32,651 nt of DNA from Actinomycetes bacterium. GTDB taxonomy: Bacteria; Actinomycetota; Acidimicrobiia; Acidimicrobiales; RAAP-2. Below the pieces are notes generated by a model. It did not search any database and had not been told where the DNA came from. It saw nothing but the letters and a program-made list of their open reading frames with translations. The translations under genes were made by a program, and so were the position numbers. Shown in pieces: positions 1 to 14,934 of the stretch. Position 1 is the stretch's first letter. The number at the start of each line of letters is the position of its first letter. Location: positions 1-32,651 of the forward strand of contig JAJZJT010000006.1 in the NCBI GenBank assembly GCA_021809995.1, given 5' to 3'.

Positions 1-2277
1 GTGGACGTCGCCGGCGCCGGTCGTGTCGACGGCGGTCGCAGGGTGCCCGGGCACGTGCACCGGAACCCCCCCCTGGCGAGCCACCCAGCAGCCACGCGGC
101 CCGACGCGGACCACGGCGATCCCGCCGGGGGCGAGCTGGCTGGCGAGTGCTGCCGCAGCCGCCGCCGGGGTGCGCTCCCCGGTGCGCCCGACAGCCTCGC
201 GCTCGTTGGCGCTGAAGAGGTCGACGCGCCCGAGCACCGCGCCGAGCGGACCACCGGGCGTGGCACCGAGCGGTCCCGGGTCCACGACCAGGAGGTGCTC
301 GGGGCCCAGCTCGTGCAGCCACGAGGCGATCGCGGGCCCGGCAACCGGGTAGAGAAGGTCGTAGCCCGAGACATAGATGGCATCGCCCGCCTCCGGGACG
401 ACCCGGTCGAGGACGGCGGCGTCGAGACGAGACTCGATACCGGGGGCAGTCAGGAACGTGCGCTCGCCACGAGCTTCGACGATGCCGACGGTGAACCCGG
501 TGTCCTCCCCGGAGACCGGTGGCACCAGGGACCGGATGCCGGACACCTCGAGGTCTCGCGCCACCTGACGCCCGAAAGCGCCGTCGCCGATCAGCCCTGC
601 GTACGCACTAGGCAGCCCGAGGCGGGCCGCTGCGCTCAGGACGTTGAACCCTCCGCCGCTGGCCAGGGTGCGGTTGCTGGCGATCACGTCTCCGCCCCGG
701 CTCGGCAACGCCTCCACGTGGACGAGGATGTCGAGGAGGATGCTGCCCACCACGACGATCCGGTGGACCGGGGACCGGGCCGGGACGAGCGCGCCGGGCT
801 CGGCGCTCCGGGTCGGTGTGCCCTTGCCGGTCGCGTCGCTGTGGGAACTGCACGGCGTCGTCGTGCGGCGTGGCGTCGTCGCACCGGCGCGGCTGCGGCG
901 TGCGGTCACGACCGCGCCCAGCTCCCAACCGGCGAGCGACACGGCCGCGGCCACGACGAGCCCGAGCCCGAACCCGAAGCTCCCGTCGCCGACCAGCCCC
1001 CTGGCCAACGGCCCGGTATACAGCGGCGACATCGTGGTGGCGAGCGCCACGGCAGATCCCGCGACGAAGCCAACCAGTCCCGGCACGTTCACCGCTCGGG
1101 CGGTCGCCTCGCCGCCAGCGCTGCCTCGGGCGGCCCCTCGCGAGGAGCGGACCATGTCAGCCAGGACCACCCCGGCCCAGGCGGTGAGCCCAGTCGCCAG
1201 CAGCGTCAGGAAGCTCTCGAACGGGCTGAGGAACCCGGCTCGGCCGACCATGAGCCACAGCCCTGCCCCGCACACGACGGCGCCGTCGACCAGGACGGTG
1301 CGGCTGCGGCGGATCCGGACACCGAGCGCGAGCAGCGTCAGCCCCGACGAGTAGCAGGCCAGGTCGGACTCGGCGAGCATGCCACCGGCCGCGACCAGCA
1401 GGAACGGCGCCGACAACCATGCGGGGAGCACGGCACCGACGGGCCCGATCGGATCGAGGGAACTGGCCAGGCCGTGGACCTTGGCGCTCAGGAGGTAGCC
1501 GGCGACCACCAGCACCGACGTCGGCAATGCCGCCCCGCACGTGACCCAGCCGACGATCGACCGAGCGCGCTCGTGCATCGGCAGGTACCGGCTGTAGTCC
1601 GGGGCGAGGTTGACCCAGCTGATGCCCGTCCCCGCCGCCAGGATCCCGCCGGCCACCAGCACGGTGCGCAGCGACGCTGGGGGTGCGGCGGCGACCCGGG
1701 CCACGTCGACGTGCAGCAGCAGCACCGGGAGCACGGCCACGGTGAGCAGGCCGAACCCGATGGCGGCGAGCCGCTGGAAGCGCACGATCACACCGTGGCC
1801 GAGCACGCCGAGGACGACCGAGGCCCCGATCATGACGCCAAGCGCCGCCGCATCGATCGCCGCCCCGGCCCGGACGCCGAAGGCGGCGTGCGCCACGCCG
1901 ACCAGGGCCCACGCCCCGATGACGGACGTCACCACCTCCCAGCCCAGCACGCTCACCCAGCCAACCGCCGCCGCCACCAGGTTGCCGGCCCGCCCGAGCG
2001 CCCGGCGCGACAGCACGAGGGCCGGCATGCCGGCGCGCTGACCAGCCACCGACACCAACCCGACCAGCAGGAACGAGGCCGTCGTCGCCACGACCGTCGT
2101 GAGCACCGCCTGGACCAGGTCGAGGCCCATGGTGGCCAGGATGGCGCCGAACACCAGGGCCAGGAGCCCGAGGTTCGCGGCGAACCACACCCCGAAGAGG
2201 TCGCGGGCGCGCCCGTGGCGCTCGTCAGGCGGCACCGCCTGGATGCCACGCTGCTCGATCCTGGTGAGTCCCGCCAT
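1..2277 (-). CDS. NCS1 cytosine/purine permease fused to PfkB-family kinase (partial)
   Basis: One uninterrupted minus-strand frame runs from an ATG at 2277 off the window start, so the C-terminus is missing. Residues 1 to about 456 look like an NCS1 (CodB-type) permease: the N-terminus reads VPPDERHGRARDLFGVWF and is followed by about 12 hydrophobic segments (last one near 908-990). A linker of about 45 residues rich in Arg, Thr and Pro (about 770-908) then leads into a ribokinase-like domain starting RIVVVGSILVD, with GGGFNV in the lid region and the PfkB signature DTTGAGDV at the window edge. The linker frame has no stop and no ATG, so a separate kinase start is unlikely. By family, the permease would import a base or nucleoside and the kinase would phosphorylate it on the inner side. 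The substrate is unknown; the kinase lacks the features of ThiD. A sequencing error that removed a stop is the main alternative. Confidence 0.8.
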   Translation of the reverse strand, partial: MAGLTRIEQRGIQAVPPDERHGRARDLFGVWFAANLGLLALVFGAILATMGLDLVQAVLTTVVATTASFLLVGLVSVAGQRAGMPALVLSRRALGRAGNLVAAAVGWVSVLGWEVVTSVIGAWALVGVAHAAFGVRAGAAIDAAALGVMIGASVVLGVLGHGVIVRFQRLAAIGFGLLTVAVLPVLLLHVDVARVAAAPPASLRTVLVAGGILAAGTGISWVNLAPDYSRYLPMHERARSIVGWVTCGAALPTSVLVVAGYLLSAKVHGLASSLDPIGPVGAVLPAWLSAPFLLVAAGGMLAESDLACYSSGLTLLALGVRIRRSRTVLVDGAVVCGAGLWLMVGRAGFLSPFESFLTLLATGLTAWAGVVLADMVRSSRGAARGSAGGEATARAVNVPGLVGFVAGSAVALATTMSPLYTGPLARGLVGDGSFGFGLGLVVAAAVSLAGWELGAVVTARRSRAGATTPRRTTTPCSSHSDATGKGTPTRSAEPGALVPARSPVHRIVVVGSILLDILVHVEALPSRGGDVIASNRTLASGGGFNVLSAAARLGLPSAYAGLIGDGAFGRQVARDLEVSGIRSLVPPVSGEDTGFTVGIVEARGERTFLTAPGIESRLDAAVLDRVVPEAGDAIYVSGYDLLYPVAGPAIASWLHELGPEHLLVVDPGPLGATPGGPLGAVLGRVDLFSANEREAVGRTGERTPAAAAAALASQLAPGGIAVVRVGPRGCWVARQGGVPVHVPGHPATAVDTTGAGDVH

Positions 2278-2628
2278 CGGCTCCTCCTCGAGGGCTGCCG
2301 GCACAGCGCCGGTTGCTGCGAGCGTGTGACCCCGGCCCGCACGGGGACGATCGTGGTGACGGCGGACGCGGCGACCAACGGCGCGACGACCACCGGACCG
2401 ACCTGATCGGTGCCGGCCGACGGTAGCGCACCCCAGGGCTCGCCCCGTGGGTGCAGCTCCCCTGCTCCGGAACACGGCGGCTCGATCGAACCGACCGGAC
2501 GGGCGCCAAGGGGGCGGTGACGCCAGGCGAAAGGAGACCGTGCACCCAGGACGGCCCAGATGACGAGCAGCGTGGCGTGGAACCTGGTCCCGTTCGCCCA
2601 GCAGCACCGCTCCTCGAGCCGGGGTGGA
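2278..2628. other. Divergent intergenic region, promoter-bearing
   Basis: No gene is seen in this stretch between the minus-strand permease-kinase and the riboswitch that serves the plus-strand operon. It must hold the promoters of both, but I cannot place -10/-35 boxes confidently in such GC-rich DNA. The pair GGGTGCA (2450-2456) and TGCACCC (2541-2547) could form a long-range stem; nothing else supports a function for it. Confidence 0.4.
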
Positions 2629-2789
2629 GCTGCGCTAGGCTCCCGCTCGTCGCAAGGCTTGGGAAGCCGGTGCGGTTCGACCCAGCCCAGCCGCTGTGAC
2701 CGGGGAGCGACCCCTCGGACGCCACCGGGCCCGCCAGCCTTGGACGGCGCGACGAGCGCAGATCTGGGAACCGGGAGATCGGCTGCAGC
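2629..2789 (+). promoter_or_regulatory. Cobalamin (B12) riboswitch
   Basis: The leader has the expected cobalamin aptamer parts in order. A possible closing stem pairs 2629-2633 with 2785-2789. A perfect 10-bp stem pairs CGCTCGTCGC (2644-2653) with GCGACGAGCG (2749-2758), and inside it CAAGGCT (2653-2659) pairs with AGCCTTG (2736-2742). The conserved core follows: GGGAAGCCGGTG near 2661, GCCGCTGTGA ending near 2699 and GCCACCGGGC near 2721. The 3' B12-box-like sequence CCGGGAGATCGGCTGC lies at 2771-2786. It ends about 30 bases before the cobI start, so it probably controls the whole cobalamin operon by sequestering the cobI ribosome site or by terminating transcription when coenzyme B12 is abundant. 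The mode of control is not visible. Confidence 0.9.
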
Positions 2790-2819: not shown

Positions 2820-3569
2820 ATGATGGGCCCGGCCCTGGTCGGAATCGGGGTAGGTCCCGGAGATCCCAGCTTGATCACGGTCAAGGCGCTGTCCGAGCTG
2901 CGCGGTGCCGACCGCGTCTTCGGCCCGACGATGGCGGTCGACGCAGTCGGGCGAGCCGAGTCGATCGTCCGGCAGGCCGCCCCCGACGTCGTGGTGGAAC
3001 GGTTGGTCTTCGCCATCATCGAAGACGCCGTCGCTCGCCGGGCCGCCCATGACCAGGCCGCCGACCGCGTCGCCGAGTGCCTCGCCACCGGGGAGCGCGT
3101 CGCCTTCGTGACCCTCGGCGACCCGAACGTGTACAGCACGTTCCACCACCTGGCCGACCGGGTGCTCGAGCGGCGCCCCGGAACCCCGGTGACGACCGTG
3201 CCCGGGATCTGCGCCTTCCAAGACCTCGCAGCGCGCAGCGGCACCGTGCTGGTCGACGGGGTGGAGCGGTTGCACCTCGTCAGCGCCGTCGCCGGGCCCC
3301 AGGCGATCGACGTGCCGCTCGCCGACCCCGAGGCCGCCGTCGTCGTGTACAAGGGCGGGCGACACCTCCCCGCGCTGGTCGAGCGCCTGCGTGCGGCCGG
3401 CCGGCTCGACGGTGCAGTGGTCGGTGAGCTCATCGGTCTGCCCGGGGAGCGGGTGGGGTCGCTCGCTCTCGCCGCATCCGGTCCGGCGGCCTACCTGTCC
3501 TCACTGGTCGTGCCGCCACGCCGCGAGGCGCGCGACGAGTCGACCGGTGCCGAGGCAGGTGAACCGTGA
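2820..3569 (+). CDS. cobI: Precorrin-2 C20-methyltransferase
   Basis: This 249-residue tetrapyrrole methylase has the CobI/CbiL signature. GIGVGPGDPSLITVKAL near the N-terminus forms the SAM and substrate cleft, and LGDPNVYSTFHHL (about residues 100-112) and VPGICAFQDLAA follow. It transfers a methyl group from SAM to C20 of (cobalt-)precorrin-2 in the cytosol. It is the first gene after the riboswitch. Two ATGs are in frame, 2820 and 2823; the ribosome site GAGGGAG (2809-2815) is spaced better for 2823, so the true protein may be one residue shorter. The stop overlaps the cobM start by 4 bases (GTGA). Confidence 0.93.
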   Translation: MMGPALVGIGVGPGDPSLITVKALSELRGADRVFGPTMAVDAVGRAESIVRQAAPDVVVERLVFAIIEDAVARRAAHDQAADRVAECLATGERVAFVTLGDPNVYSTFHHLADRVLERRPGTPVTTVPGICAFQDLAARSGTVLVDGVERLHLVSAVAGPQAIDVPLADPEAAVVVYKGGRHLPALVERLRAAGRLDGAVVGELIGLPGERVGSLALAASGPAAYLSSLVVPPRREARDESTGAEAGEP

Positions 3570-4354
3570 TCTCGTTCGTCGGCGCCGGGCCCGGTGCACC
3601 CGACCTCATCACGCTGCGCGGACGCGACCGACTCGCGGCTGCCGACGTCGTGGTCTGGGCTTCGTCGCTGGTCCCCGAAGCCGTCCTGGTCCACACGCGT
3701 CCTGGCGCCGTGGTGCACGATTCGAAGTCCATGACGCTCGAGGACGTCCTGGCCGTCTACGCCGCCAACCCCGACGGAGCCGTGGTCCGGCTGCACTCGG
3801 GCGACCCGTCCGTCTACGGCGCCATCCAAGAGCAGATCGACTGGTGCGTGGCCCAGGGACGAGACTTCGAGATCGTTCCTGGCGTCAGCTCTCTCGGTGC
3901 CGCCGCCGCCGCGGTCGGGCGGGAGCTGACCATCCCCGGCGTGGCCCAGAGCGTGGTGCTCACCCGCCTTGGCGGGCGAACTGCCGCCAGCATGCCCGGG
4001 CGCGAGCGCATCGCCGCCTTCGCCGCCGTGGGCCCGACTCTCGCCGTGTTCCTGTCGGCGGCCCGGCCGGTCGAGCTGCAGCGCGAGCTGCTCGCCGTGG
4101 GCTCCGCCTACGAGCCCACGACGCCCGCTGCCGTGGTGGTGCGGGCGTCGTGGCCCGACGAGCAGGTGGTGCGAACCACCGTGGGCGAGCTGGCCGACGC
4201 CGTCGCGTCCACCGGCGCCCGCACGACGGTGCTGGTGCTCGTGGGGCCCGCGCTGCAGGGCAACGCCGAGCGGAGCCATCTCTACTCGCCGTCGTACGCC
4301 CACGCCTACCGCCGCCGTTCCGCTCCGGGGACCACGACGGGCCGGCCGGCATGA
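3566..4354 (+). CDS. cobM: Precorrin-4 C11-methyltransferase
   Basis: The 262-residue protein begins at a GTG overlapping the cobI stop. It carries MISFVGAGPGAPDLITLRG at the N-terminus, the HSGDPSVYGAIQEQ loop and VPGVSSLGAAAAA, all typical of CobM/CbiF. It methylates C11 of (cobalt-)precorrin-4. Length matches the family. The 4-base overlaps at both ends (GTGA upstream, ATGA downstream) suggest translational coupling within the operon. It sits next to the CbiD-like stub, as cbiF and cbiD often sit close together in corrin clusters. Confidence 0.93.
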   Translation: MISFVGAGPGAPDLITLRGRDRLAAADVVVWASSLVPEAVLVHTRPGAVVHDSKSMTLEDVLAVYAANPDGAVVRLHSGDPSVYGAIQEQIDWCVAQGRDFEIVPGVSSLGAAAAAVGRELTIPGVAQSVVLTRLGGRTAASMPGRERIAAFAAVGPTLAVFLSAARPVELQRELLAVGSAYEPTTPAAVVVRASWPDEQVVRTTVGELADAVASTGARTTVLVLVGPALQGNAERSHLYSPSYAHAYRRRSAPGTTTGRPA

Positions 4355-4515
4355 CCCGGCCCCCCGCCACCGCGCCGTTGGACCGCGCCGTCGTCACGCC
4401 GCGGCGCCGAGGGCGGCGTACAGGCGTTGCCGCCGGCACGTGCGACGCGGTCGGGGCGAAGGCGGCGGCCCTCGTCATCGGCTTCGACGGGTCGCAGGTG
4501 GCGGCCCGTGCCTGA
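4351..4515 (+). pseudogene. CbiD-like N-terminal stub (54 aa)
   Basis: This short frame starts at an ATG overlapping the cobM stop and ends 8 bases inside the next gene. Its middle, RRTGVAAGTCDAVGAKAAAL, resembles the N-terminal motif of cobalt-precorrin-5B C1-methyltransferase CbiD, which usually reads like TTGTCAAAAAKAA after an Arg/Gly-rich lead. A full CbiD is about 350 residues; here the frame stops 11 residues after the motif region and no further CbiD sequence follows before cbiG-cobJ. I read it as a remnant left after CbiD was lost. That CobF, which also methylates C1, is encoded later in the operon fits this. It could still be translated, because the coupling overlaps are kept. The match is judged by eye. 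Confidence 0.6.
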
Positions 4516-6226
4516 GGCACGCCGTAGGCCGGCAGCCTCCACCCGGCCGGACGTCGAGCGCAGCGCGCTCCACCGCACCCTGGTGTCCGTGTCGGTCACC
4601 GAGGCAGGGCGCTCGATCGCCCACCGGCTGCCGTTCGCGCATCACCACGGCGACGTGGCCGGGACGGTCCGCCGACTGTGGGCGGACGTCGACGGCTTCG
4701 TCCTGATGCTGGCGGCGGGCGCAGCCGTGCGCATCGTCGCGCCGCTCCTCGAGGGCAAGGACCGGGACCCGGCGGTGGTCTGCGTGGACGACGCGGCACG
4801 CTGGGCCGTCGCCCTCGTCGGCGGCCACGGCGGCGCCAACGCGCTGGCCCACCAGGTCGCCGCCTTGCTCGGCGCCGAAGCTGTCGTCACCACCGCCACG
4901 GACGCCACGCGGACCCCGGCGCTCGACCTCTTCCCCGGCTTCCGGGCGGAGGGGGACGTCGCCGGTGTGACCGCGGCCATGTTGGCCGGGCGCTCGCCGG
5001 TCGTCGAGGTGGCGCTTCCCGAGTGGCCCACCCCGGCCAGCCTGACCGATGGGCCAGGTCCGGAGCGGGTCGTCGTCACGGACGCGGCGCTCGCCACCGA
5101 GGCGGGGGTTGCGGTGTTGCACCCACCGTCGCTGGTCGCCGGAGTGGGCTGCTCGACGGCCGCCGACCCGGCCGAGGTCGCTGCGCTCTTGGACCGCGCC
5201 CTGGCCGGTGCAGGCCTGGCCAGGGCCAGCGTCGGCTCGGTGGCAACGATCGATCGGCGCCGCCACCACCCGGCGGTCACGTCCCTCGGTCTCGAGGTGC
5301 AGGCGTTCTCGCCGACAGAGCTCGCCGCCGTAGCGGTGCCGAACCCGAGCACCACCGTCGCCGACGCGGTCGGCACTCCGAGCGTCGCCGAGGCCGCCGC
5401 CCTCCTCGCTGCCGGTCCCGGCGCGTCGTTGGCGGTGGCGAAGCAGCGATCGGCGACCGGCACCGTAGCCGTGGCCCGCCGCGCGGCGCCGGCCGGCTGC
5501 CTGTCGGTGGTGGGTCTCGGACCCGGCGGCGTCGCCCACCGAACCCCGGCTGCCGCTACCGCGGTGCGCCACGCCGAGGTCGTCGTCGGCTACGGGCCCT
5601 ACCTCGACCAGGCCGGCGATCTGCTGACCGCGTCGCAGGTCGTGGTGCGCTCGCCGATCGGCAGCGAGGAGGACCGGGCACGCCTGGCGCTGGCGCACGC
5701 CGCCGCCGGCCGACGCGTCGCCCTGGTCTGCTCGGGTGACGCGGGGGTCTACGGCATGGCGTCGCTCGCCGTCGAGCTCGCCGGCGACGAGCTGCCCGGG
5801 GTGCGGATCGACGTCGTCCCTGGGGTCACCGCGGCGCTGGCCTCGGCAGCACTGCTGGGCGCGCCGCTCGGCCACGACCACGCCACCATCAGCCTGTCGG
5901 ACCTCCTGACGCCGTGGGAGGTGATCGAGCGCCGCGTACGGGCCGCGGCTGAGGCCGACCTGGTGGTGGCCTTGTACAACCCGCGTTCGGGCGGTCGGAC
6001 CTGGCAGCTTCCCGCCGCGCTCGACATCCTGCGGCGCTACCGGCCGGCGGCGACCCCGGTGGGGCTCGTCACCGACGCCACCCGACCCAGCCAGCGCGTG
6101 GTGCACACGACCCTGGCCGAGGTCGAACCAGCAGATGTCGGGATGACGACCTGCGTCGTCATCGGCGCCACGACCACCACGACCGTTGCCGGGCGGATGG
6201 TCACCCCCCGGGGCTACCGATCGTGA
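4508..6226 (+). CDS. cbiG-cobJ: CbiG-CobJ fusion: cobalt-precorrin-5A hydrolase / precorrin-3B C17-methyltransferase
   Basis: Starting at a GTG at 4508 gives 572 residues. The first about 150 residues resemble the CbiG N-terminal domain (LMLAAGAAVRIVAPLL, ALVGGHGGANALA). Residues about 210-325 are the CbiG C-terminal/CobE-type domain (VAGVGCSTAADPAEV, VPNPSTTVADAVGTPSVAEAA). Residues about 332-572 are a CobJ/CbiH methylase with VVGLGPGG, CSGDAGVYGMASLA, VPGVTAALASAALLGAPLGHD and LYNPRSGGR. CbiG opens the delta-lactone and releases acetaldehyde in the early-cobalt route; CobJ methylates C17 and contracts the ring. CbiG-CobJ fusions are known in actinobacteria. An in-frame ATG at 4427 would extend it, but that stretch overlaps the CbiD stub and cobM-proximal DNA and is not CbiG-like. 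Confidence 0.92.
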   Translation: MPEARRRPAASTRPDVERSALHRTLVSVSVTEAGRSIAHRLPFAHHHGDVAGTVRRLWADVDGFVLMLAAGAAVRIVAPLLEGKDRDPAVVCVDDAARWAVALVGGHGGANALAHQVAALLGAEAVVTTATDATRTPALDLFPGFRAEGDVAGVTAAMLAGRSPVVEVALPEWPTPASLTDGPGPERVVVTDAALATEAGVAVLHPPSLVAGVGCSTAADPAEVAALLDRALAGAGLARASVGSVATIDRRRHHPAVTSLGLEVQAFSPTELAAVAVPNPSTTVADAVGTPSVAEAAALLAAGPGASLAVAKQRSATGTVAVARRAAPAGCLSVVGLGPGGVAHRTPAAATAVRHAEVVVGYGPYLDQAGDLLTASQVVVRSPIGSEEDRARLALAHAAAGRRVALVCSGDAGVYGMASLAVELAGDELPGVRIDVVPGVTAALASAALLGAPLGHDHATISLSDLLTPWEVIERRVRAAAEADLVVALYNPRSGGRTWQLPAALDILRRYRPAATPVGLVTDATRPSQRVVHTTLAEVEPADVGMTTCVVIGATTTTTVAGRMVTPRGYRS

Positions 6227-6408
6227 CCGCGGCGGTCGCGGTGGACGGTCGGCGCACCGCCTGGTCGCACGTTCCGACCAGCACGGAAGGGCACGGCCCG
6301 CTCGCCGCTCGGTCCGCGCCCGTGCCGGCGAGCTGCACGGCGTGCGGCGTCTCCCGGGCCACCTGCCCCCACGCGGCGCTCCGCTCCGTGCCACGGTGCC
6401 GGCCGTGA
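6223..6408 (+). CDS. Small Cys-containing ORF, possible decayed ferredoxin-like protein
   Basis: The frame starts at a GTG overlapping the cbiG-cobJ stop (GTGA) and ends at a TGA overlapping the cobH GTG, so it is placed exactly like the real operon genes. The 61-residue product has CTACGVSRATCP near residues 38-49. This resembles half of a 4Fe-4S ferredoxin site (CxxCxxCxxxCP), but the third Cys is missing, so it could not bind a normal cluster alone. The remainder is low complexity. It may be a degraded ferredoxin partner or merely a spacer that preserves translational coupling. Confidence 0.45.
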   Translation: MTAAVAVDGRRTAWSHVPTSTEGHGPLAARSAPVPASCTACGVSRATCPHAALRSVPRCRP

Positions 6409-7028
6409 CCGTCCACCCCATCGAGCAGGAGAGCTACCGGATCCTCGCCGACCGGATCGACCTGTCCAGCCTGCCGCCACTCAGCCGGGCGGTCGTCGCC
6501 CGCGTGGTGCACGCCACCGCCGACGTGGCGCTGGCCGGCACCATGGTCCTCGACGAGGCACAGCTGGACGTGGCAGTTGCAGCGCTGCGCGCCGGCGCAC
6601 CCGTGGTGACCGACGTGGCCATGGTGGCAGCCGGGATCAGTGGCCGCGACGCCCGCTGCTTCCTCGACCGCGTCCCCCCCGCCCGCGCGAGCGTCGCGCC
6701 GGCCATCGCCGGTGACGCCGCACCGACCCGCAGTGCCCGAGCGATGCGCCTGGCGGCGGCGGCGCATCCGGCTGGGGCCGTCTTCGTCATCGGCTGCGCG
6801 CCGACCGCACTGGTCGAGCTCGTCGCCCTGTCGGCAGCCGGCGCGCTCCACCCGGCCCTCGTCATCGGCATGCCGGTGGGGTTCGTCGGGGCGGCGGAGT
6901 CCAAGGAGGCGCTGCGAGCCAGCGGGCTCCCGGCCGTCAGCAACGTCGGCGAGCGCGGCGGGTCGGCAGCTGCAGCGGCAGCCTGTAACGCGCTCGTCCG
7001 GATCGCCGACGGCGGCGCCGATGACTGA
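6405..7028 (+). CDS. cobH: Precorrin-8X methylmutase
   Basis: The 207-residue protein from the GTG at 6405 matches the usual CobH/CbiC length. It reads VHPIEQESYRILADRIDLS at the start, then RAVVARVVHATADV with the likely catalytic His at residue 36, VTDVAMVAAGIS, and GCAPTALVELVAL and MPVGFVGAAESKEAL near the end. It moves the methyl group from C11 to C12, forming hydrogenobyrinate or cobyrinate. A GTG at 6396 is an alternative start. The stop overlaps the next ATG region by 8 bases (7021-7028). Confidence 0.94.
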   Translation: MTVHPIEQESYRILADRIDLSSLPPLSRAVVARVVHATADVALAGTMVLDEAQLDVAVAALRAGAPVVTDVAMVAAGISGRDARCFLDRVPPARASVAPAIAGDAAPTRSARAMRLAAAAHPAGAVFVIGCAPTALVELVALSAAGALHPALVIGMPVGFVGAAESKEALRASGLPAVSNVGERGGSAAAAAACNALVRIADGGADD

Positions 7029-7914
7029 GGCGGTGGTGCTCGTGGCGCACGGGTCGCGCTCGCCGGCGGGACGCGACGAGATGCTCGCCCTAGCCAGTGC
7101 GGTGGCCTCGGCCCGGCCCGGGACACCGGTACGCGCCGGGTTCCTCGAGATGAGCGACCCGCCTGCGTCGACCGTGCTCGAGGACCTGCTCGACAGCGGG
7201 GTCCGTGACGTGACCGTGGTCCCGCTCATGCTCCTCGCCGCTGGGCACGCCAAGTCCGACGTACCGGCGGTCGTCCTGCAAGCCCGGGCTCGTCATCCCG
7301 GTGCGCGCATCGCCTACGGCCGTCCCCTCGGCGTTGACCACGCGCTCTTGACGTTGGCGCGGCGACGGCTGGAGGCTGCCGGCGCGGTAGGCCTTCCCCT
7401 GGCGGTGCTGGCCCGGGGCACGTCCGACCCCGACGCGAACGCCGAAGCTTGGCGAGCGAGCCGACTGCTGGCCGACATGGCCGAGACGAGACTGGTGGCG
7501 ACCGGGTTCTCGGGCCTGACGTGGCCGACCGTCACCGGCGCGCTCGAGCAGCTGCAGCGGCTGGGAGCGACGCGCATCGCCGTGTTCTCGTGGTTCCTGG
7601 CCACCGGCGTGCTGCTGGACCGCATGCGTGCCGACTGGCAGGCGTTCGCCTCGGCGACGGGTGTCGGAGTGCTCGATGCCGGGTATTTCGGGATCGAGCC
7701 GGAGCTGGTCTCCCTGGTCTGGTCTCGCGTCGACGAGGCCGGCGCGGGCTGGGTCATGGCGAACTGCGACACCTGCGCCTACCGGCGACCGTTCCCGGGG
7801 CTGGCCGACCGGGTCGGCATGGCGATCGGTGTCGGACACTCGCATCTCGCCGCCGAGCACCGCAGCGGGCACGACCACGGCGGGCACGACCACCACCACG
7901 GAGGCGACGGCTGA
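7021..7914 (+). CDS. cbiX: Sirohydrochlorin cobaltochelatase, two-domain, His-rich tail
   Basis: The 297-residue protein starts at the ATG 7021. VVLVAHGSRSPAGRDEM holds the first chelatase His (H10), and two CbiX/SirB repeats follow (about 1-115 and 120-245). The C-terminal part has NCDTCAYRRPFPG, a CxxC motif seen in actinobacterial CbiX proteins, and ends in a His/Asp/Gly tail (HDHGGHDHHHGG) that could bind cobalt. CbiX inserts Co(II) into sirohydrochlorin, which marks the early-cobalt route. No ATP-dependent cobaltochelatase (CobNST) is in the window. Confidence 0.92.
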   Translation: MTEAVVLVAHGSRSPAGRDEMLALASAVASARPGTPVRAGFLEMSDPPASTVLEDLLDSGVRDVTVVPLMLLAAGHAKSDVPAVVLQARARHPGARIAYGRPLGVDHALLTLARRRLEAAGAVGLPLAVLARGTSDPDANAEAWRASRLLADMAETRLVATGFSGLTWPTVTGALEQLQRLGATRIAVFSWFLATGVLLDRMRADWQAFASATGVGVLDAGYFGIEPELVSLVWSRVDEAGAGWVMANCDTCAYRRPFPGLADRVGMAIGVGHSHLAAEHRSGHDHGGHDHHHGGDG

Positions 7915-8153
7915 GGCTGACGGGAGCGGGGCCGGCCAGACTCGGCCGGATCCTGACCAGGTCCGCCCGTGACCGCCAGTTCGTCGCGACCCGAGCGACC
8001 CCGAGCTGCTCTCGGGAGGTGACGGAGGCAGCTGGTCCGGCCAGCACCGGCAGGTCGGGCAACCCGGGTCCCACGGGCTCCCCGATCGAGCGCGGGTGCT
8101 GCCGCGCCGCCGGCGCCAGTTGTCGTCGCGGATGCCCACGCTAGTGTCGCACC

Positions 8154-8675
8154 GTGCCTCAGCCGTCGCGTCTGCTCGTGAACACCGGCACCGGAAAGGG
8201 CAAGAGCTCGGCCGCCTTCGGGGTGATGGGACGGGCCTGGGCCCGGGGGTGGTCGGTGGGCGTGGTCCAGTTCGTCAAGAGCGACAAGTGGCAGGTCGGT
8301 GAGCGCAAGCTGGCCGCGCACCTCGGGGTCGACTGGCACACGCTGGGCGACGGGTTCACGTGGGAGTCCGAGGACCTCGACGCGACCGAGGCCAGGGGCC
8401 GCCACGCCTGGCAGGTCGCCAGCGAGATGGTCGCCTCGGGCGACTACGACCTGGTGATCCTCGACGAGATGACCTACATCGTGAAGTACGGCTGGGTGCC
8501 GGTGGCAGACGTGGTGGCGGTCCTCGCTGCACGGCCGCAGCGGACCAACGTGATCGTCACCGGGCGCAATGCGCCTGCCGAAGTCGTGGCGCTCGCCGAC
8601 ACGGTCACCGAGATGGTCAAGGTGAAGCACGCGTTCGACCAGGACATCCGCGCTCGCAAGGGGATCGAGTATTGA
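8154..8675 (+). CDS. cobO: Corrinoid adenosyltransferase (CobA/CobO/BtuR type)
   Basis: Starting at GTG 8154, the 173-residue protein has the P-loop NTGTGKGKSSAA (residues about 10-21), VVQFVKSDKW, LVILDEMTYIVKYGW and VIVTGRNAP, the full BtuR family pattern. It transfers the 5'-deoxyadenosyl group of ATP to Co(I) of a corrinoid. The 239 bases before it (7915-8153) hold no recognisable gene and form the largest gap in the operon, so a second promoter may lie there. The stop overlaps the next start (TTGA). Confidence 0.95.
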   Translation: MPQPSRLLVNTGTGKGKSSAAFGVMGRAWARGWSVGVVQFVKSDKWQVGERKLAAHLGVDWHTLGDGFTWESEDLDATEARGRHAWQVASEMVASGDYDLVILDEMTYIVKYGWVPVADVVAVLAARPQRTNVIVTGRNAPAEVVALADTVTEMVKVKHAFDQDIRARKGIEY

Positions 8676-10057
8676 CCACCCTCGGCCCGCGCCTCGTCGT
8701 GTCGGGCACTCGCTCGGGGGCAGGCAAGACGACGGTGGCTTCGGGTCTCATGGCGGCGTTCCGGCACCGGGGGTGGCGGGTGGCGTCGGCCAAGGTCGGG
8801 CCGGACTTCATCGACCCGGGCTACCACTCGATCGCGACCGGCCGACCGGCGCGCAACCTCGACCCGTGGATGTGCGGCGTGGAGCTGCTGGGCCCGCTGG
8901 CATCCAGAGCCGGAGAGGGTGCCGACGTCCTCGTGGTCGAAGGGGTCATGGGCCTCTTCGACGGCGCAGCAGACGGCACCCCGTCGTCGACGGCCGAGGT
9001 CGCCAAGCGCCTCGACGCCCCGGTGGTCCTGGTCGTCGACGCAGCGTCCACGAGCCAATCGGTCGCCGCGGTCGTCCACGGCTTTCGCACCTTCGACCCT
9101 GCAGTGCACGTCGCCGGGGTGGTCCTCAACCTGGTCGGCAGCGACAGCCACGAGGCGATGCTGCGCGCCGCGCTCGCCGACTCCGGTGTGCCGGTGTACG
9201 GGGCGCTCCGACGCGACGACGCCCTGCGGTGGCGCAGTCGTCACCTGGGGTTGCAGCCGGTCGCCGAGGATCCCGCCGGCGTCGGCCGGTCACTCGATCG
9301 TCTCGCCGTGGCCATCTCGGCGCGCTGCGACCTCGACGGCCTGATGCGCCTGGCTCGCGCTGCTCCTCCCCTGCCCACCGCGCCGCTGCCCCGACCCCGC
9401 CGGGTCGTCGGCAACCGTTCTGCGCCCCGCGTGGCGGTCGCTTCCGGTCCCGCGTTCAGCTTCTGCTACCCGGACAACCTCGAGGCACTCGGCGCCGCCG
9501 GGGCGGAGGTGGTCACCTTCGACCCCTGCGTCGACGCGGGGCTGCCGCCGGAGACGTCCGCCGTGCTGGCCGGCGGCGGCTTCCCCGAGCTGTACGCCGA
9601 GGTCCTGGCCGCCAACGAGCCGATGCTCCGGTCCGTGGCCGATCACCACCTGCGAGGCGGCGTGATCTGGGCTGAGTGCGGAGGGCTCTTGTGGCTGACC
9701 CGCACGCTCGACGGGTCCGCCATGGCCGGTGTGGTCGATGCCGACGCGACCATGAGCGGCGGACGCGTCCTCGGCTACCGGTCGGCGACGACGACGCGCC
9801 CGTCGCCGCTCGGGCCGCCAGGGACCCAAGTCCGGGGGCACGAATTCCACTACTCGGCCACCGATCCGGGTGGCGACGCCCTGGTGCTGGCCGGCCGGCA
9901 CGGGACGACGACCGGCGGGTTCGCCGGCCCGCACCTCCTCGCCTCCTACCTGCACGTCCACCTCGCGTCGTACCCGACCATCGCCGAGACGTTCGTGTCG
10001 ACGGCAGCGAGGTCCCCGCTTGCCGCGCCCGGACCCGCTGGCCATGGCGTCCGATGA
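8672..10057 (+). CDS. cobB: Cobyrinate a,c-diamide synthase (CbiA/CobB)
   Basis: I chose the TTG at 8672, which overlaps the cobO stop and places the P-loop GTRSGAGKTTVA at residues 12-23 as in the family; this gives 461 residues. The N-terminal half is the ATP-dependent synthetase (KVGPDFIDPGYH, EGVMGLFDG). The C-terminal half is a class I-type glutamine amidotransferase with LAGGGFPELYAEVL and the catalytic Cys at about residue 336 in WAECGGLLWL, plus HEFHYS. It amidates the a and c side chains using glutamine and ATP. The stop lies inside the following 74-aa ORF. Confidence 0.94.
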   Translation: MTTLGPRLVVSGTRSGAGKTTVASGLMAAFRHRGWRVASAKVGPDFIDPGYHSIATGRPARNLDPWMCGVELLGPLASRAGEGADVLVVEGVMGLFDGAADGTPSSTAEVAKRLDAPVVLVVDAASTSQSVAAVVHGFRTFDPAVHVAGVVLNLVGSDSHEAMLRAALADSGVPVYGALRRDDALRWRSRHLGLQPVAEDPAGVGRSLDRLAVAISARCDLDGLMRLARAAPPLPTAPLPRPRRVVGNRSAPRVAVASGPAFSFCYPDNLEALGAAGAEVVTFDPCVDAGLPPETSAVLAGGGFPELYAEVLAANEPMLRSVADHHLRGGVIWAECGGLLWLTRTLDGSAMAGVVDADATMSGGRVLGYRSATTTRPSPLGPPGTQVRGHEFHYSATDPGGDALVLAGRHGTTTGGFAGPHLLASYLHVHLASYPTIAETFVSTAARSPLAAPGPAGHGVR

Positions 10058-10268
10058 GCCCACGGCCGGCCAGAGGGAGGCCGGTCGGCCGTGGCCCACG
10101 ACGCGCGAGACGTCGGCCTGGATCGCCGACGACCTGGTGGTGCCCGCGAGACGCGCGAGCATGATGGCCCTCGCCGGAGATGCCCTGGTCGACGCCGACG
10201 TCGACGTCCTGACGGCCAGCCCTGTCCGCTCGGCTCTTCTGGCCCGCGCCTTCGGGCTGGGGCGATGA
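10044..10268 (+). CDS. Orphan 74-aa protein in the cob operon
   Basis: The frame begins at the ATG 10044, overlaps the end of cobB by 14 bases and ends overlapping the cobL start (ATGA), so it fits the operon's coupling pattern. The product contains ARRASMMALAGDALVDADVD and ends VRSALLARAFGLGR. I do not recognise the family. The Val-Asp-Val-Leu strand followed by LLARA weakly recalls the C-terminal end of CbiD, which often lies next to cbiE/cbiT, but this is too short to claim. It has no membrane segment or Cys motif. Confidence 0.5.
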   Translation: MASDEPTAGQREAGRPWPTTRETSAWIADDLVVPARRASMMALAGDALVDADVDVLTASPVRSALLARAFGLGR

Positions 10269-11509
10269 CCCTCGAGACCTTGGTGGCTCCGGATGGCGGC
10301 AGGGTGCCGATCGCTGTGGTCGGCGTGCACGGCGGCCTCGTCTACGGTCCCGGAGCCCTCGCGGCCCTCGCCAACGCCGACGTCGTCGTCGGTTCGCCGC
10401 GCCAGCTCTCCCAAACGGCGTCCTTGTGCCGGCCCGAGGCCGACACCGTCGTCCTCGCCGGCCCCCTCGACGAGGTCCTCGATCGCGTCGAGGACGCGTC
10501 GGGGGCCGGGCGGGCGGTCAGCGTGCTGGCCTCTGGCGACCCGGGCTTCTTCGGTATCGTCAGGGTGCTGGCCGCACGGGTGGGACGCGGTCTCCTGCAG
10601 GTGCACCCGGCACCCAGCGCGGTCTCGCTGGCGTTCGCCCGGCTCGGGCTCAGTTGGGACGACGCGACCGTCGTGTCCGCCCACGGCCGTCCGCTGGCCG
10701 ACGCCGTGCGCGCGGTGCGGTCGTCGGCTCAGCCGTCGGTCGCCATCCTCACCTCTCCGGACAATCCGCCGCAGCTCGTCGCCGAAGCGCTGATCGCCGC
10801 CGGCGAACCGACGGGACCCGAGGCGGCCGCAGCGGTCGCGTCGCGGCTGGGGGAGCAAGGTGAGGCAGTGACCGTCTCCGATCTGTCGGACATCGCCGAG
10901 GGCAGCTTCGACCCCATGTCCGTACTGGTCCTGACAGGCCGGGCCGCCAGCCCGGGGGTCCCCAGCCTGGCGTGGGGGTTGGCGGAGGCCGCATTCGACC
11001 GCCGAGACGGGATGATCACCAAGGCCGAGGTGCGCGCCGTCGCGCTCGGGAAGCTCGACCTCCCACCCTTCGGGGTGCTGTGGGACGTCGGAGCAGGAAG
11101 CGGCTCCGTCGGGATCGAGTGCGGCCGGCTCCGCCCCGGCCTCGACGTCTTCGCCGTCGAGCGTGACCGAGCCCAGGTGGACAGGATCCGGTCGAACGCC
11201 GACCGCCACCGAGTCAAGGTCACCGTGACCGAGGGAGAGGCGCCGGACGCACTGGTCGGACTGCCCGACCCCGACCGCGTCTTCGTCGGTGGTGGTGGCT
11301 CCGAGGTCCTCGACGCGGTCCTCGGGCGACTGCGACCCACCGGCGTCGTGGTGGCCACGTACGCCGTCGTCGACCGGGCCGTAGCTGCCGCGGCCGTGCT
11401 CGGCAACGTGGTCGAGCTGTCGGTGAGCCGCGGGGTGGCAACGGGTGGCTTGGGCGTACGTCTGCGTGCCGAGAACCCGGTGTTCGTGTGCTGGGGGCCG
11501 GAGACTTGA
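10265..11509 (+). CDS. cobL: Precorrin-6Y C5,15-methyltransferase (decarboxylating), CbiE-CbiT fusion
   Basis: The 414-residue protein starts at the ATG 10265. Residues about 14-210 are the CbiE methylase (VVGVHGGLVYGPGALAAL, ASGDPGFFGIV, VHPAPSAVSLAFARLG). Residues about 235-414 are the CbiT Rossmann methylase (ITKAEVRAVALGKLDL, LWDVGAGSGSVGIE, FVGGGG). It methylates C5 and C15 and removes the acetate carboxyl group at C12. The domain order and length are those of CobL. A single base separates its stop from the ATG of the next small ORF. Confidence 0.95.
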   Translation: MTLETLVAPDGGRVPIAVVGVHGGLVYGPGALAALANADVVVGSPRQLSQTASLCRPEADTVVLAGPLDEVLDRVEDASGAGRAVSVLASGDPGFFGIVRVLAARVGRGLLQVHPAPSAVSLAFARLGLSWDDATVVSAHGRPLADAVRAVRSSAQPSVAILTSPDNPPQLVAEALIAAGEPTGPEAAAAVASRLGEQGEAVTVSDLSDIAEGSFDPMSVLVLTGRAASPGVPSLAWGLAEAAFDRRDGMITKAEVRAVALGKLDLPPFGVLWDVGAGSGSVGIECGRLRPGLDVFAVERDRAQVDRIRSNADRHRVKVTVTEGEAPDALVGLPDPDRVFVGGGGSEVLDAVLGRLRPTGVVVATYAVVDRAVAAAAVLGNVVELSVSRGVATGGLGVRLRAENPVFVCWGPET

Positions 11510-11756: not shown

Positions 11757-12517
11757 GGACGGTCAGGGTGATCGGTGTGGGCATGGGCAACCCCCGCCAC
11801 CTGACGGCCGAGGCGGTGGACGCGCTACGAAGCGTCGACGTGTTCTTCGTCCCCGAGAAAGGGTCCGCAGCCGACGAGCTGGTGGCACTGCGCCGGGACC
11901 TGTGCCGAGCGGTCATCGGCACCGACGACTACCGCTTCGTCACGGTTCCCGACCCCCCTCGTGACCGCTCCACGACGGCGTACGCCCAGGCTGTGCAGAC
12001 CTGGGCTGCCGCCCGCGGCGACGTGCTGCTCGAGACCATGGAGGCCCACCTCGAACCCGGCCAGACGGCAGGGATCCTGGCGTGGGGCGATCCCGCCTTC
12101 TACGACAGCACGCTGCGGGTGCTGGACGCCGGCCGGACAACGGGACGCCTCGAGGTGGAGGTGGTGCCGGGGATCAGCAGTATCCAGATGCTGGCCGCGG
12201 CTCACCGGATCTCGCTCACCCGGGTCGGGCAGTCGCTCCAGGTGACCACCGGCCGGCGGTTGGCCGAGGAAGGGCTCCCTCCCGGCTGCCACGACGTGGT
12301 CGTCATGCTCGACGGCCGCTGCGCGTTCCAGCACGTCGGTCCAGACGGCGTTCAGATCTACTGGGGTGCGGACCTGGGCGGCCCCGACCAGGCGATCGTG
12401 TCGGGCGAGCTGGGAGAGGTGGCCGACGCGATCCTGGCCCGACGGGCCGAGATCCGGTCCCGCCGAGGATGGGTGATGGACACCTACCTGCTCCGCCGGG
12501 GCATCCCGCACCGATGA
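11753..12517 (+). CDS. cobF: Precorrin-6A synthase (deacetylating), C1-methyltransferase
   Basis: The 254-residue protein follows the CobF family closely: VIGVGMGNPRHLTAEAVDAL, VDVFFVPEKG, DPPRDRSTTAYA, WGDPAFYDSTLRVL, VPGISSIQMLAAAHRI, TTGRRLAEEG, VVMLDGRCAF, YWGADLG and the end GWVMDTYLLRRG. In the aerobic route CobF adds the C1 methyl and releases acetate. Its presence beside CbiX and CbiG, with CbiD reduced to a stub, is the main oddity of this operon. It overlaps the preceding ORF and the next gene by 4 bases each. Confidence 0.95.
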   Translation: MRTVRVIGVGMGNPRHLTAEAVDALRSVDVFFVPEKGSAADELVALRRDLCRAVIGTDDYRFVTVPDPPRDRSTTAYAQAVQTWAAARGDVLLETMEAHLEPGQTAGILAWGDPAFYDSTLRVLDAGRTTGRLEVEVVPGISSIQMLAAAHRISLTRVGQSLQVTTGRRLAEEGLPPGCHDVVVMLDGRCAFQHVGPDGVQIYWGADLGGPDQAIVSGELGEVADAILARRAEIRSRRGWVMDTYLLRRGIPHR

Positions 12518-13164
12518 TCTACCTGGTCCGCCACGGCCAGTCGGAGTGGAACCTCCTGCGCCGGACCCAAGGCCAGATCTCCCACCCGGGCCTGACCGTT
12601 CTCGGACGGCGACAGGCGTCCACCGCGGCGCGAGCGATCCGCGCCGACGCCGAGCGAAACGGCCAGCCGGTCCGCTCCGTGATCGCCAGCGACCTGGTCC
12701 GGGCGGTCCAGACGGCACAGATCGTTGCCACTGCCCTGGCGGCCCCCGTGCACATGGACGCGCGCTGGCGCGAACAGTGCCTCGGACGGCTAGAAGGGCT
12801 CGGGTACGACGAGACCTACGCCGAGCTGGCGAGCCACCGGGCCGACCCGGACGCACCGATCGGCGGAGGTGAATCGGAGCACCAGGTGACCGAGCGGGTA
12901 GCCGCCGCCTTGGCTGACGTGGTCCCGACGGAGGCGACCGTGGTCGTGACCCACGGGGACACGATCCGCTGCCTCGTGGCCCACGTCACGGGGATGGCCG
13001 CGGCGTACGACGTCTCGCACCCGGTGCCGAACGGCGCGGTCATCGTGCTCGAGGGCCGTTACGGCTGCCGGATCCGGCCGCTGGTTGGCCCGCCGCTGGT
13101 TGGTGTTCGAAGCGCCTCCGAGGCAGGGCCGCGTTCGTCCCGTCGGCGCCCGCAGATGCTCTGA
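12514..13164 (+). CDS. cobC: Histidine phosphatase, probable alpha-ribazole phosphatase (CobC)
   Basis: The 216-residue protein opens with MIYLVRHGQSEWN, the RHG motif holding the phospho-accepting His (residue 7). The second catalytic His lies in VVVTHGDTIRC (residue 147), and Arg and Glu of the SDLVRAVQTA and EQCLGRLEG stretches complete the site. Many histidine phosphatases share this layout. The position at the end of a cobalamin operon and opposite bluB-cobT supports dephosphorylation of alpha-ribazole phosphate or adenosylcobalamin phosphate. The last about 30 residues are basic, Ser/Pro-rich and probably disordered. Confidence 0.82.
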   Translation: MIYLVRHGQSEWNLLRRTQGQISHPGLTVLGRRQASTAARAIRADAERNGQPVRSVIASDLVRAVQTAQIVATALAAPVHMDARWREQCLGRLEGLGYDETYAELASHRADPDAPIGGGESEHQVTERVAAALADVVPTEATVVVTHGDTIRCLVAHVTGMAAAYDVSHPVPNGAVIVLEGRYGCRIRPLVGPPLVGVRSASEAGPRSSRRRPQML

Positions 13165-13208
13165 GCACGTCTCCTGCACGGCAGCATGCAGCCGCCGCGC
13201 TCAGGAGA
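13161..13208. terminator. Inverted repeat between convergent genes, possible terminator
   Basis: TCTCCTG (13170-13176) pairs with CAGGAGA (13202-13208), and CTGAGC (13161-13166) can alternatively pair with GCTCAG (13199-13204). The element lies in the 36-base gap between cobC and the convergent bluB-cobT and overlaps the latter's stop. There is no T-tract, so termination is an inference from position. Confidence 0.35.
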
Positions 13209-14934
13209 GGTCGGTCTCAGCCCACAGCTCCTCGACCGATGCCGTCGACTGGCGCGAACGTACGGCCGTCAACACCATCTGGGCGGCAAGGCAAGCACCG
13301 ACGCCCTCCCCGGCGCGCAGTCGAAGCTGCAGCAGCGGTTCGAGGCCGAGCTCTGCGAGCACCCGGCCGTGGGCCAGCTCTCGGCTGCGCTGGCCCGCCA
13401 CCAAGGCGCTCTGGGCTGCAGGTTCGATGCGCACGGCAACCAGCGCAGCGAGTGAGGTGACCAAGCCGTCGAGCACCACGGGTGCCCGAGCTGCGGCGGC
13501 GGCCACAGTCAGCCCGGCGAGGAACGCGATCTCGGGACCACCGACCGCGGCGAGCGCCACCTCCGGTTCGCCGAGCCGCTTGCCGTAAGTGGAGCGGGCC
13601 CGCTTCAGTGCGGCCGCGACGACGTCCCGCTTCCGGCGCACCATGGCCGAGTCTGCCGCCGCACCCAGACCGACGGCTTCGTCTACGTCGATCCCCAGCA
13701 AGGCGCAGGCCAGGGCGGCCGCTACGGTCGTGTTGCCGATGCCCACCTCCCCGAGGCAGACGAGCCCGTCCGCCCCGATCCGTCGGCCGAGCTCCTCCCC
13801 TGAACGGAAGAGAAGCTCGATGTCGGCGGGATCGAGCGCGTCGTCGGCGACCATGTCACCGGTGTGACGGGTGGCGACGGCGTGCACCGATTCCACGGCC
13901 AGGCCGACCTCACGTGCCGTCACGGCGCCGAGCGACACACCGGCTCGGGTGGCCGCCAAGACGTCGCCCGTGACCGAAGGGGAGAAGGCAGACACTCCGT
14001 GCCTCGTCACCGGATGGTCACCGGCCGCGACGACGAGCGTTCCCGTCGTCGGAGGATCTGGCCGCAGAGCCAGCACCCGGTTCACGACGAGGTCGAGCAA
14101 TCCCAGCGAGCCCGGGACGGTAAGCCGATGATCTCCCTCGTCGCGCCCGGCGACGACCGACGCAGGCCCGGGACCGGCCAGGTGCGATACCGGGGCGGCG
14201 GGCTCGTCGGTGCACGGCCAACGCTCCTCCACGACGACATCCTCGAGCGGTGCGCGCTCCGACCAGCCGTGCCGCTCCAGTCCGGGACTGGGGGGCCGCT
14301 CGTCCGGCCACCCGATGCAGAGCCAACCCAGTGTTTCGACCCCGTGCGGCAGGCCGAGCAGTCCGGCCAGCTCCTCGGGCTGGAACAGCGTCACCCAGCC
14401 GAGGCCGAGGCCGACCGCCCGCGCCGCCAGCCACATGTTCTCGATGGCGCAGGCGCAGCTCCACATGTCGGCATCGGCGAAGCTGGCCCGCCCGAGCACA
14501 CCTTCAGCCGGTACCCGCCGGTCGCAGGCGACGACCACGCCAACCGGTGCCTCCCTGATGCCTTCGAGCTGCAGGTCGAGCAGCCGCGACCTTCGCTCCT
14601 CGGTGAGCATCTCGGCCTGTCGAAGCCGCTCGCGGTCGGCCATGAACGCAGCCTGGTCACGCGTTCTCTGATCTCGCACGACGACGAAGCGCCAGGGTTG
14701 GGAGTGCCCGACGGACGGAGCCCGATGGCCCGCCATGAGCACCTGCCCCACCACCTCCGACGGCACCTCGTCAGGCCGGAAACGGCGGACGTCCCGCCTC
14801 GCGGCGAGGACCTCGTGCACTGCCGTCACCGTCGCCGCATCGAACGACCATCCGGCAGGATCCGCAGAACGCTGGGCCGCTGACGTCGGATCACCGACCA
14901 ACGGAACCGGTCGCGGCCACACAAGTTCGTCCAT
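13201..14934 (-). CDS. bluB-cobT: BluB-CobT fusion: DMB synthase / nicotinate-nucleotide:DMB phosphoribosyltransferase
   Basis: This 577-residue protein joins two enzymes. Residues about 30-230 are BluB, a flavin-destroying nitroreductase-fold enzyme (LAARRDVRRFRPDEVPSE 43-60, HRAPSVGHSQPWRF 70-83, FADADMWSCACAIENMWLAA, LGLGWVTLF) that makes 5,6-dimethylbenzimidazole from FMNH2 and O2. Residues about 270-577 are CobT (GDHPVTRHGVSAF 305-317, GEVGIGNTTVAAAL 395-408, RAGEGVGACLA 540-550 with the catalytic Glu), which makes alpha-ribazole phosphate. Joining them would pass the base directly. BluB needs oxygen, so the cell is at least oxygen-exposed. The ATG at 14934 has no clear ribosome site; a group II intron remnant ends just upstream of it. 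Confidence 0.94.
   Translation of the reverse strand: MDELVWPRPVPLVGDPTSAAQRSADPAGWSFDAATVTAVHEVLAARRDVRRFRPDEVPSEVVGQVLMAGHRAPSVGHSQPWRFVVVRDQRTRDQAAFMADRERLRQAEMLTEERRSRLLDLQLEGIREAPVGVVVACDRRVPAEGVLGRASFADADMWSCACAIENMWLAARAVGLGLGWVTLFQPEELAGLLGLPHGVETLGWLCIGWPDERPPSPGLERHGWSERAPLEDVVVEERWPCTDEPAAPVSHLAGPGPASVVAGRDEGDHRLTVPGSLGLLDLVVNRVLALRPDPPTTGTLVVAAGDHPVTRHGVSAFSPSVTGDVLAATRAGVSLGAVTAREVGLAVESVHAVATRHTGDMVADDALDPADIELLFRSGEELGRRIGADGLVCLGEVGIGNTTVAAALACALLGIDVDEAVGLGAAADSAMVRRKRDVVAAALKRARSTYGKRLGEPEVALAAVGGPEIAFLAGLTVAAAAARAPVVLDGLVTSLAALVAVRIEPAAQSALVAGQRSRELAHGRVLAELGLEPLLQLRLRAGEGVGACLAAQMVLTAVRSRQSTASVEELWAETDLS

Follow-up and report, generated by a model that had tools for sequence, protein, structure and literature searches.

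Does the gene that fills the first 2277 nucleotides of this contig really encode a transporter and a kinase in one polypeptide and, if so, which compound would such a protein take up and phosphorylate? The window (the whole stretch of 32,651 nucleotides analysed here) is the entire contig C84 of a draft MAG, 2.9 Mb in 355 contigs. On its minus strand, the NCS1-PfkB fusion gene (1..2277) runs as a single open frame with two Pfam domains from an ATG at 2277 to the contig end without a stop, and is preceded by a likely ribosome binding site read from the sequence (GAGGAGGAG; 2281..2289, minus strand). The encoded chain comprises an NCS1 permease domain (residues 15-417; 1027..2235, minus strand; PF02133, E 2.7e-39, 135.6 bits against a cut-off of 23.5, with profile positions 2-419 of 440 covered), a polar linker (residues about 456-504; 766..912, minus strand) and a PfkB/ribokinase-type kinase domain (residues 505-757; 7..765, minus strand; PF00294, E 2.7e-26, 93.1 bits against a cut-off of 25.8). 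Because the window is the whole contig and the gene runs off its end, the 3' end of the gene and hence the C-terminus of the kinase are missing; the kinases of relatives extend roughly 55-105 residues past this point. The catalytic DTTGAGD motif falls just within the window and is invariant, as D-T-x-GAGD, in an alignment of the kinases. At the equivalog level, no named PfkB specificity emerged for this C-terminally cut domain, all NCBIfam equivalog matches lying far under their cut-offs (75.9 against 299.65 for ribokinase).

An open frame alone is weak proof of a fusion here, because high GC makes long frames cheap: the antisense strand is itself open for 801 codons (window 1-2406, plus strand), most likely as a by-product of high GC. 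The case for the fusion therefore rests on comparative evidence. That related genomes might carry the same fusion, as the first-pass annotation envisaged, proved right: a scan of GTDB genomes and relatives of the window genome identified NCS1 and PfkB domains in one frame at 17 further distinct loci (L031-L044, L111, L112 and L116), which are 42-90% identical. Thirteen of these are full-length, the other four (L036, L043, L044 and L116) being cut by contig ends, and at the DNA level the closest two are 99.0% identical and the others 93% or less. The genomes that carry the in-frame joint span 41-75% GC and many assemblies. A chance open frame is ruled out by this comparison, since the full-length fusions of 810 and 809 aa found in genomes of 47% and 41% GC occupy stretches in which each of the remaining five frames contains 14-85 stops. 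The linkers of the relatives are likewise polar and very different in length, and yet the frame is never broken. The first-pass annotation had described a single uninterrupted chain with a linker devoid of ATG, and both statements hold; the window linker also lacks an in-frame TTG and contains a single GTG at its start (codon 907-909). An internal start that would yield a free kinase was considered for this GTG and rejected: none of the codons ATG, GTG and TTG occurs in the linkers of L031, L032, L033 and L035, so that their kinases could hardly be made apart from the permease. Taken together, these sequence comparisons confirm the NCS1-PfkB single chain as a genuine arrangement conserved across several families. 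We also note that at L039 (2999-5701) the linker has been extended, in frame, by a long tandem hexapeptide repeat of the APVPSG/APVPPG type, to about 70 residues more than that of the window.

Predicted structures agree with both domain assignments. The AlphaFold2 model of the full-length homologue L041 had a mean pLDDT of 79 and a pTM of 0.56 over the whole chain, with a poorly ordered linker (pLDDT under 50), while its kinase domain modelled alone reached a pLDDT of 86.7 and a pTM of 0.87. The permease fold named in the first-pass annotation was recovered in the match of this model to the cytosine transporter CodB (7qoa; Z 34.2, rmsd 3.2, 393 residues aligned), even though a profile search by sequence matched the permease to no solved chain. 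CodB and other NCS1 transporters share fold and family with the N-terminal domain of the fusion, but have no kinase attached and show about 15% identity to its permease in the structural alignment. The kinase fold was recovered likewise, with Z scores of 35.6 against E. coli ribokinase (1rk2) and 33.6 against aminoimidazole riboside kinase (1tz3). These enzymes and adenosine kinase share the fold and the GG and DTTGAGD motifs with the C-terminal domain, but are soluble stand-alone proteins with 19-26% identity to it. Since the model also matches fructokinase and adenosine kinase, and sugar- and nucleoside-kinase matches score close together, the fold does not pick a substrate for the kinase.

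A clue to the substrate comes from the genes around the fusion. Divergent from it on the plus strand, Pfam and NCBIfam matches delineate a block of cobalamin genes (2820..11509) made up of two tetrapyrrole methylases (cbiL- and cbiF-like), cbiG-cbiH, cbiC, cbiX, cobO, cbiA/cobB and cbiE-cbiT. Beyond these lie cobF and a CobC-like phosphatase (11768..13164, plus strand; TIGR02434, 302 bits; TIGR03162, 88.9 bits against a cut-off of 162.9, the phosphatase thus falling below cut-off) and, on the minus strand, a BluB-CobT2-type fusion of dimethylbenzimidazole synthase and a divergent CobT (13201..14934; TIGR02476, 228.5 bits, over cut-off; PF02277, 219 bits; CobT models, 199-206 bits, below their cut-offs). 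A weak cobalamin riboswitch match precedes the divergent cbi genes (2660..2781, plus strand; RF00174, 21.3 bits, below the gathering threshold of 31.5, E 0.0039), and L033 and L041 show full-score matches in the equivalent position. Control of the fusion gene itself by a riboswitch was considered and set aside, as the matches found precede neighbouring cbi/cob genes and none was shown before a fusion gene.

Cobalamin genes adjoin the fusion in 12 of the 15 main-clade loci (the window, L031-L035, L037-L039, L041, L043 and L044); no cobalamin neighbour was seen at L040, at L042 or in the short flank of L036. The arrangements differ: the fusion gene may diverge from cbiL and converge on cbiJ, lie downstream of cobN-chlID, or stand between nicO and cbiA. 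In genomes G152 and G155 (loci L090 and L091), it is the last gene of a same-strand run of cobU, cobS, cbiB, an aminotransferase, cobQ, cobN and chlID; in G152, cbiZ precedes this run. In genome G001, where permease and kinase are split into two genes, the pair is placed between cobO with a GHMP kinase and BluB-CobT2. This GHMP kinase (L102, 7247-8173, minus strand) has weak homoserine/mevalonate kinase matches and is possibly a threonine kinase of the cobamide pathway. Elsewhere, some fusions, and most of the distant relatives, are located away from B12 genes; the complete low-GC fusions L111 and L112 are among those that have no cobalamin genes next to them, although both CobS and CobT are present in their genomes. 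Because of these two loci, and because more loosely associated NCS1 and PfkB genes adjoin sulfatase genes in genomes that lack CobS, the cobalamin link is strong for the main clade only.

The distribution of CobS, CobT and BluB across genomes provides a second line of evidence. In a set of 148 genomes, CobS was present in all six with the permease-kinase pair, against 52 of the 142 others (p 0.003, kinship ignored), and this co-occurrence extends to genomes in which the fusion lies away from cobalamin genes. Overall, CobS was found in 17 of the 20 genomes with the pair and was not found in the MAGs G149, G153 and G154; draft MAGs may miss genes, and absence from a single draft genome is weak evidence. 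CobT was missing in 8 of the 17 CobS genomes with the pair (G067, G127, G136, G148, G151, G152, G155 and G158), a count that excludes two permease-only genomes and one duplicate, against 7 of 54 CobS genomes without it (p 0.005, kinship ignored). Seven of these eight have no BluB over cut-off, G151 having one, and thus at least 7 of the 17 have neither CobT nor BluB (the BluB search left out G403, G449, G498 and G501). G152 and G155, in which the fusion gene closes the nucleotide-loop operon, have no detectable CobT and no BluB over cut-off. Some CobT is kept in the other 9 of the 17, including the window genome (G000) with its BluB-CobT2-type fusion.

CobS needs alpha-ribazole phosphate, for which the usual source is CobT acting on dimethylbenzimidazole (PMC8123684). 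We consider it, on balance, somewhat more likely than not that the fusion combines, in one chain, the import and phosphorylation of a cobamide lower-ligand riboside, with alpha-ribazole as the most likely substrate. We infer transport and phosphorylation from the protein families, and the substrate from the neighbourhood and the pathway hole; the direction of transport and the coupling of uptake to phosphorylation are likewise inferences, coupled uptake being the natural reading of a permease-kinase chain. The ring compound imported by the NCS1 domain would be alpha-ribazole, which is the alpha-riboside of 5,6-dimethylbenzimidazole, or a riboside close to it; once inside, it would be phosphorylated at its 5'-hydroxyl by the ribokinase-type domain tethered on the cytosolic side, and so trapped in the cell. 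The predicted product, alpha-ribazole 5'-phosphate, would be a direct substrate of CobS, to be joined to the activated corrin by a route that bypasses both CobT and BluB. In genomes that keep CobT or BluB-CobT2, among them the window genome, the fusion could serve for scavenging in addition to the cell's own synthesis. Two traits of the families speak for alpha-ribazole: nucleobase-like rings are the substrates of NCS1 carriers, and riboside kinases (1tz3) and adenosine kinases are found among the ribokinase-type enzymes. A free benzimidazole base has no sugar hydroxyl for a ribokinase-type enzyme, and corrinoids greatly exceed the size that an NCS1 carrier could handle. The first-pass annotation had looked to cytosine, purines, nucleosides and pseudouridine; the gene context leads away from these general substrates and towards the lower-ligand branch of cobamide (vitamin B12) biosynthesis.

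Several observations count against alpha-ribazole: the matches of the kinase include both sugar and nucleoside kinases, L111 and L112 lie off cobalamin genes, some CobT persists in 9 of the 17 pair-bearing CobS genomes, the sulfatase-side NCS1-PfkB neighbours occur without CobS, and no riboswitch was shown before a fusion gene. The protein might serve general nucleoside salvage, importing and phosphorylating an ordinary nucleoside, with the cobalamin neighbours reflecting inherited gene order rather than function. Such a role would suit two families that usually serve nucleobases, nucleosides and sugars, as well as the low-GC fusions and sulfatase-linked pairs that have no cobalamin neighbours. 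However, no fewer than three different arrangements of cobalamin neighbours were found, so that one gene order simply passed on by descent does not account for them, and the co-occurrence with CobS also holds in genomes whose fusion lies elsewhere; we regard general nucleoside salvage as unlikely. Alternatively, the fusion might be cobamide-related with another substrate. One example is nicotinate riboside, which would be converted to NaMN, from which CobT takes its ribose phosphate; another is the riboside of a different lower ligand, such as a purine or a benzimidazole other than dimethylbenzimidazole. The cobalamin context fits these substrates too, some genomes with the pair have CobT, and the gap in the pathway could also be filled by a lower-ligand riboside of another kind. 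Nicotinate riboside, however, would be of no help to the CobT-less genomes G067, G148, G152, G155 and G158, an objection that does not extend to the other lower-ligand ribosides; to this group of substrates as a whole we assign a distinctly low probability.

In a tree of the permease domain, the 15 fused rows grouped in a single clade (support 100/99), whose sole non-fused member is the split pair of G001; in that pair, the permease stop overlaps the kinase start as GTGA. On this phylogeny, the simplest history would be a single fusion followed by one later fission in G001, the deepest join being less certain, with L111 and L112 on long branches. The first-pass annotation had set its fusion against the alternative that all close homologues encode two separate proteins, an arrangement that the main clade shows only in G001, where the tree makes it a later fission. 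An error of assembly or sequencing might be imagined to have joined two genes that overlap, given that a one-base error could fuse a pair like that of G001 and that the window comes from a draft MAG. This last and weakest alternative can be dismissed as having next to no probability, because the same in-frame joint recurs at the 17 other loci, in many assemblies at 41-75% GC and with differing linker lengths. Spread by plasmids or viruses was also considered and rejected: no relative was found in PLSDB or, by pattern scan, in IMG/VR. Two MAGs each contain two different fusion genes (L031 and L039 in G148; L034 and L044 in G151), which are either true paralogues or the result of mixed bins.

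The alpha-ribazole importer-kinase that we favour has a counterpart in CblT and CblS, described as the alpha-ribazole transporter and kinase of Listeria innocua and Lactobacillus and known mostly from Firmicutes (PMC6461909, PMC8123684). The role proposed for CblT/CblS is the one that we propose for the fusion: alpha-ribazole is taken up and converted to its phosphate, in many cases in organisms that lack CobT. The fusion shares this pattern of occurrence, being found with CobS (17 of 20 genomes) and often without CobT (8 of 17). The difference is that CblT/CblS are two proteins found mostly in Firmicutes, whereas the fusion is one NCS1 and PfkB chain of Acidimicrobiia-type actinobacteria. CblS and CblT probably belong to other protein families than the fusion, for which the profile searches listed only NCS1 and PfkB-type models. 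By analogy, the fusion would best be read as matching CblT/CblS in function while being assembled from different protein families. Whether these CobT-less actinobacteria possess, in a secondary transporter joined to its own substrate's kinase, an import-and-trap chain, a second and independently evolved form of alpha-ribazole salvage by which they complete cobamides from a shared precursor, seems to us evenly poised.

Other fusions of partly similar design are known. The BluB/CobT2 fusion of Propionibacterium freudenreichii, which has a proline-rich linker, belongs to the same lower-ligand branch of B12 synthesis (PMC4657239) and has a relative in the window at 13201-14934, but it joins two synthesis enzymes rather than a transporter and a kinase. 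PTS permeases also combine transport and phosphotransfer in one polypeptide, but through their own phosphorelay. CbrA (PMC13022988) is one polypeptide too, but it carries a signalling histidine kinase, whereas the fusion joins a secondary carrier to a metabolite kinase. In a literature search with most subscription journals outside its coverage, we found no published NCS1-PfkB fusion, no PfkB alpha-ribazole kinase and no earlier description of a one-chain NCS1-PfkB importer-kinase. Alpha-ribazole is released into natural waters and has been discussed as a precursor that helps microbes overcome B12 deficiency (PMC9296465), and 42% of predicted cobamide producers are without recognised genes for benzimidazole synthesis or phenol attachment (PMC6461909). 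If our reading is true, such gaps would be filled, in another phylum, by a second alpha-ribazole system that can be recognised from a simple domain fusion. With its metabolite kinase attached to a secondary carrier, the protein would, in addition, allow a clean test of whether uptake by phosphorylation gains from physical coupling.

The two families also occur in looser associations. At L098, L099 and L101, all in one genus without CobS, separate NCS1 and PfkB genes lie near a gene for a 751-aa protein (a sulfatase in L099); these pairs are a different use of the same two families. Permease relatives without an adjacent PfkB gene were found at L084 (7084-8550), L085 (1931-3415), L086 (1103-2446), L087 (3-1325, cut by the contig end), L114 (8756-10285) and L115 (1748-3061). 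These are 35-49% identical to the window permease and all lie in genomes with CobT; they could import a free lower-ligand base. The permease relatives in other Actinomycetota (35-39% identical) were considered as a clue to the substrate and rejected as uninformative, their neighbours being isochorismatase-family or unrelated genes. At L124 (8156-10290), L125 (1524-3616) and L127 (41-2118), the genes of more distant permease relatives in other Actinomycetota overlap an isochorismatase-family gene, forming another possible transporter-enzyme couple.
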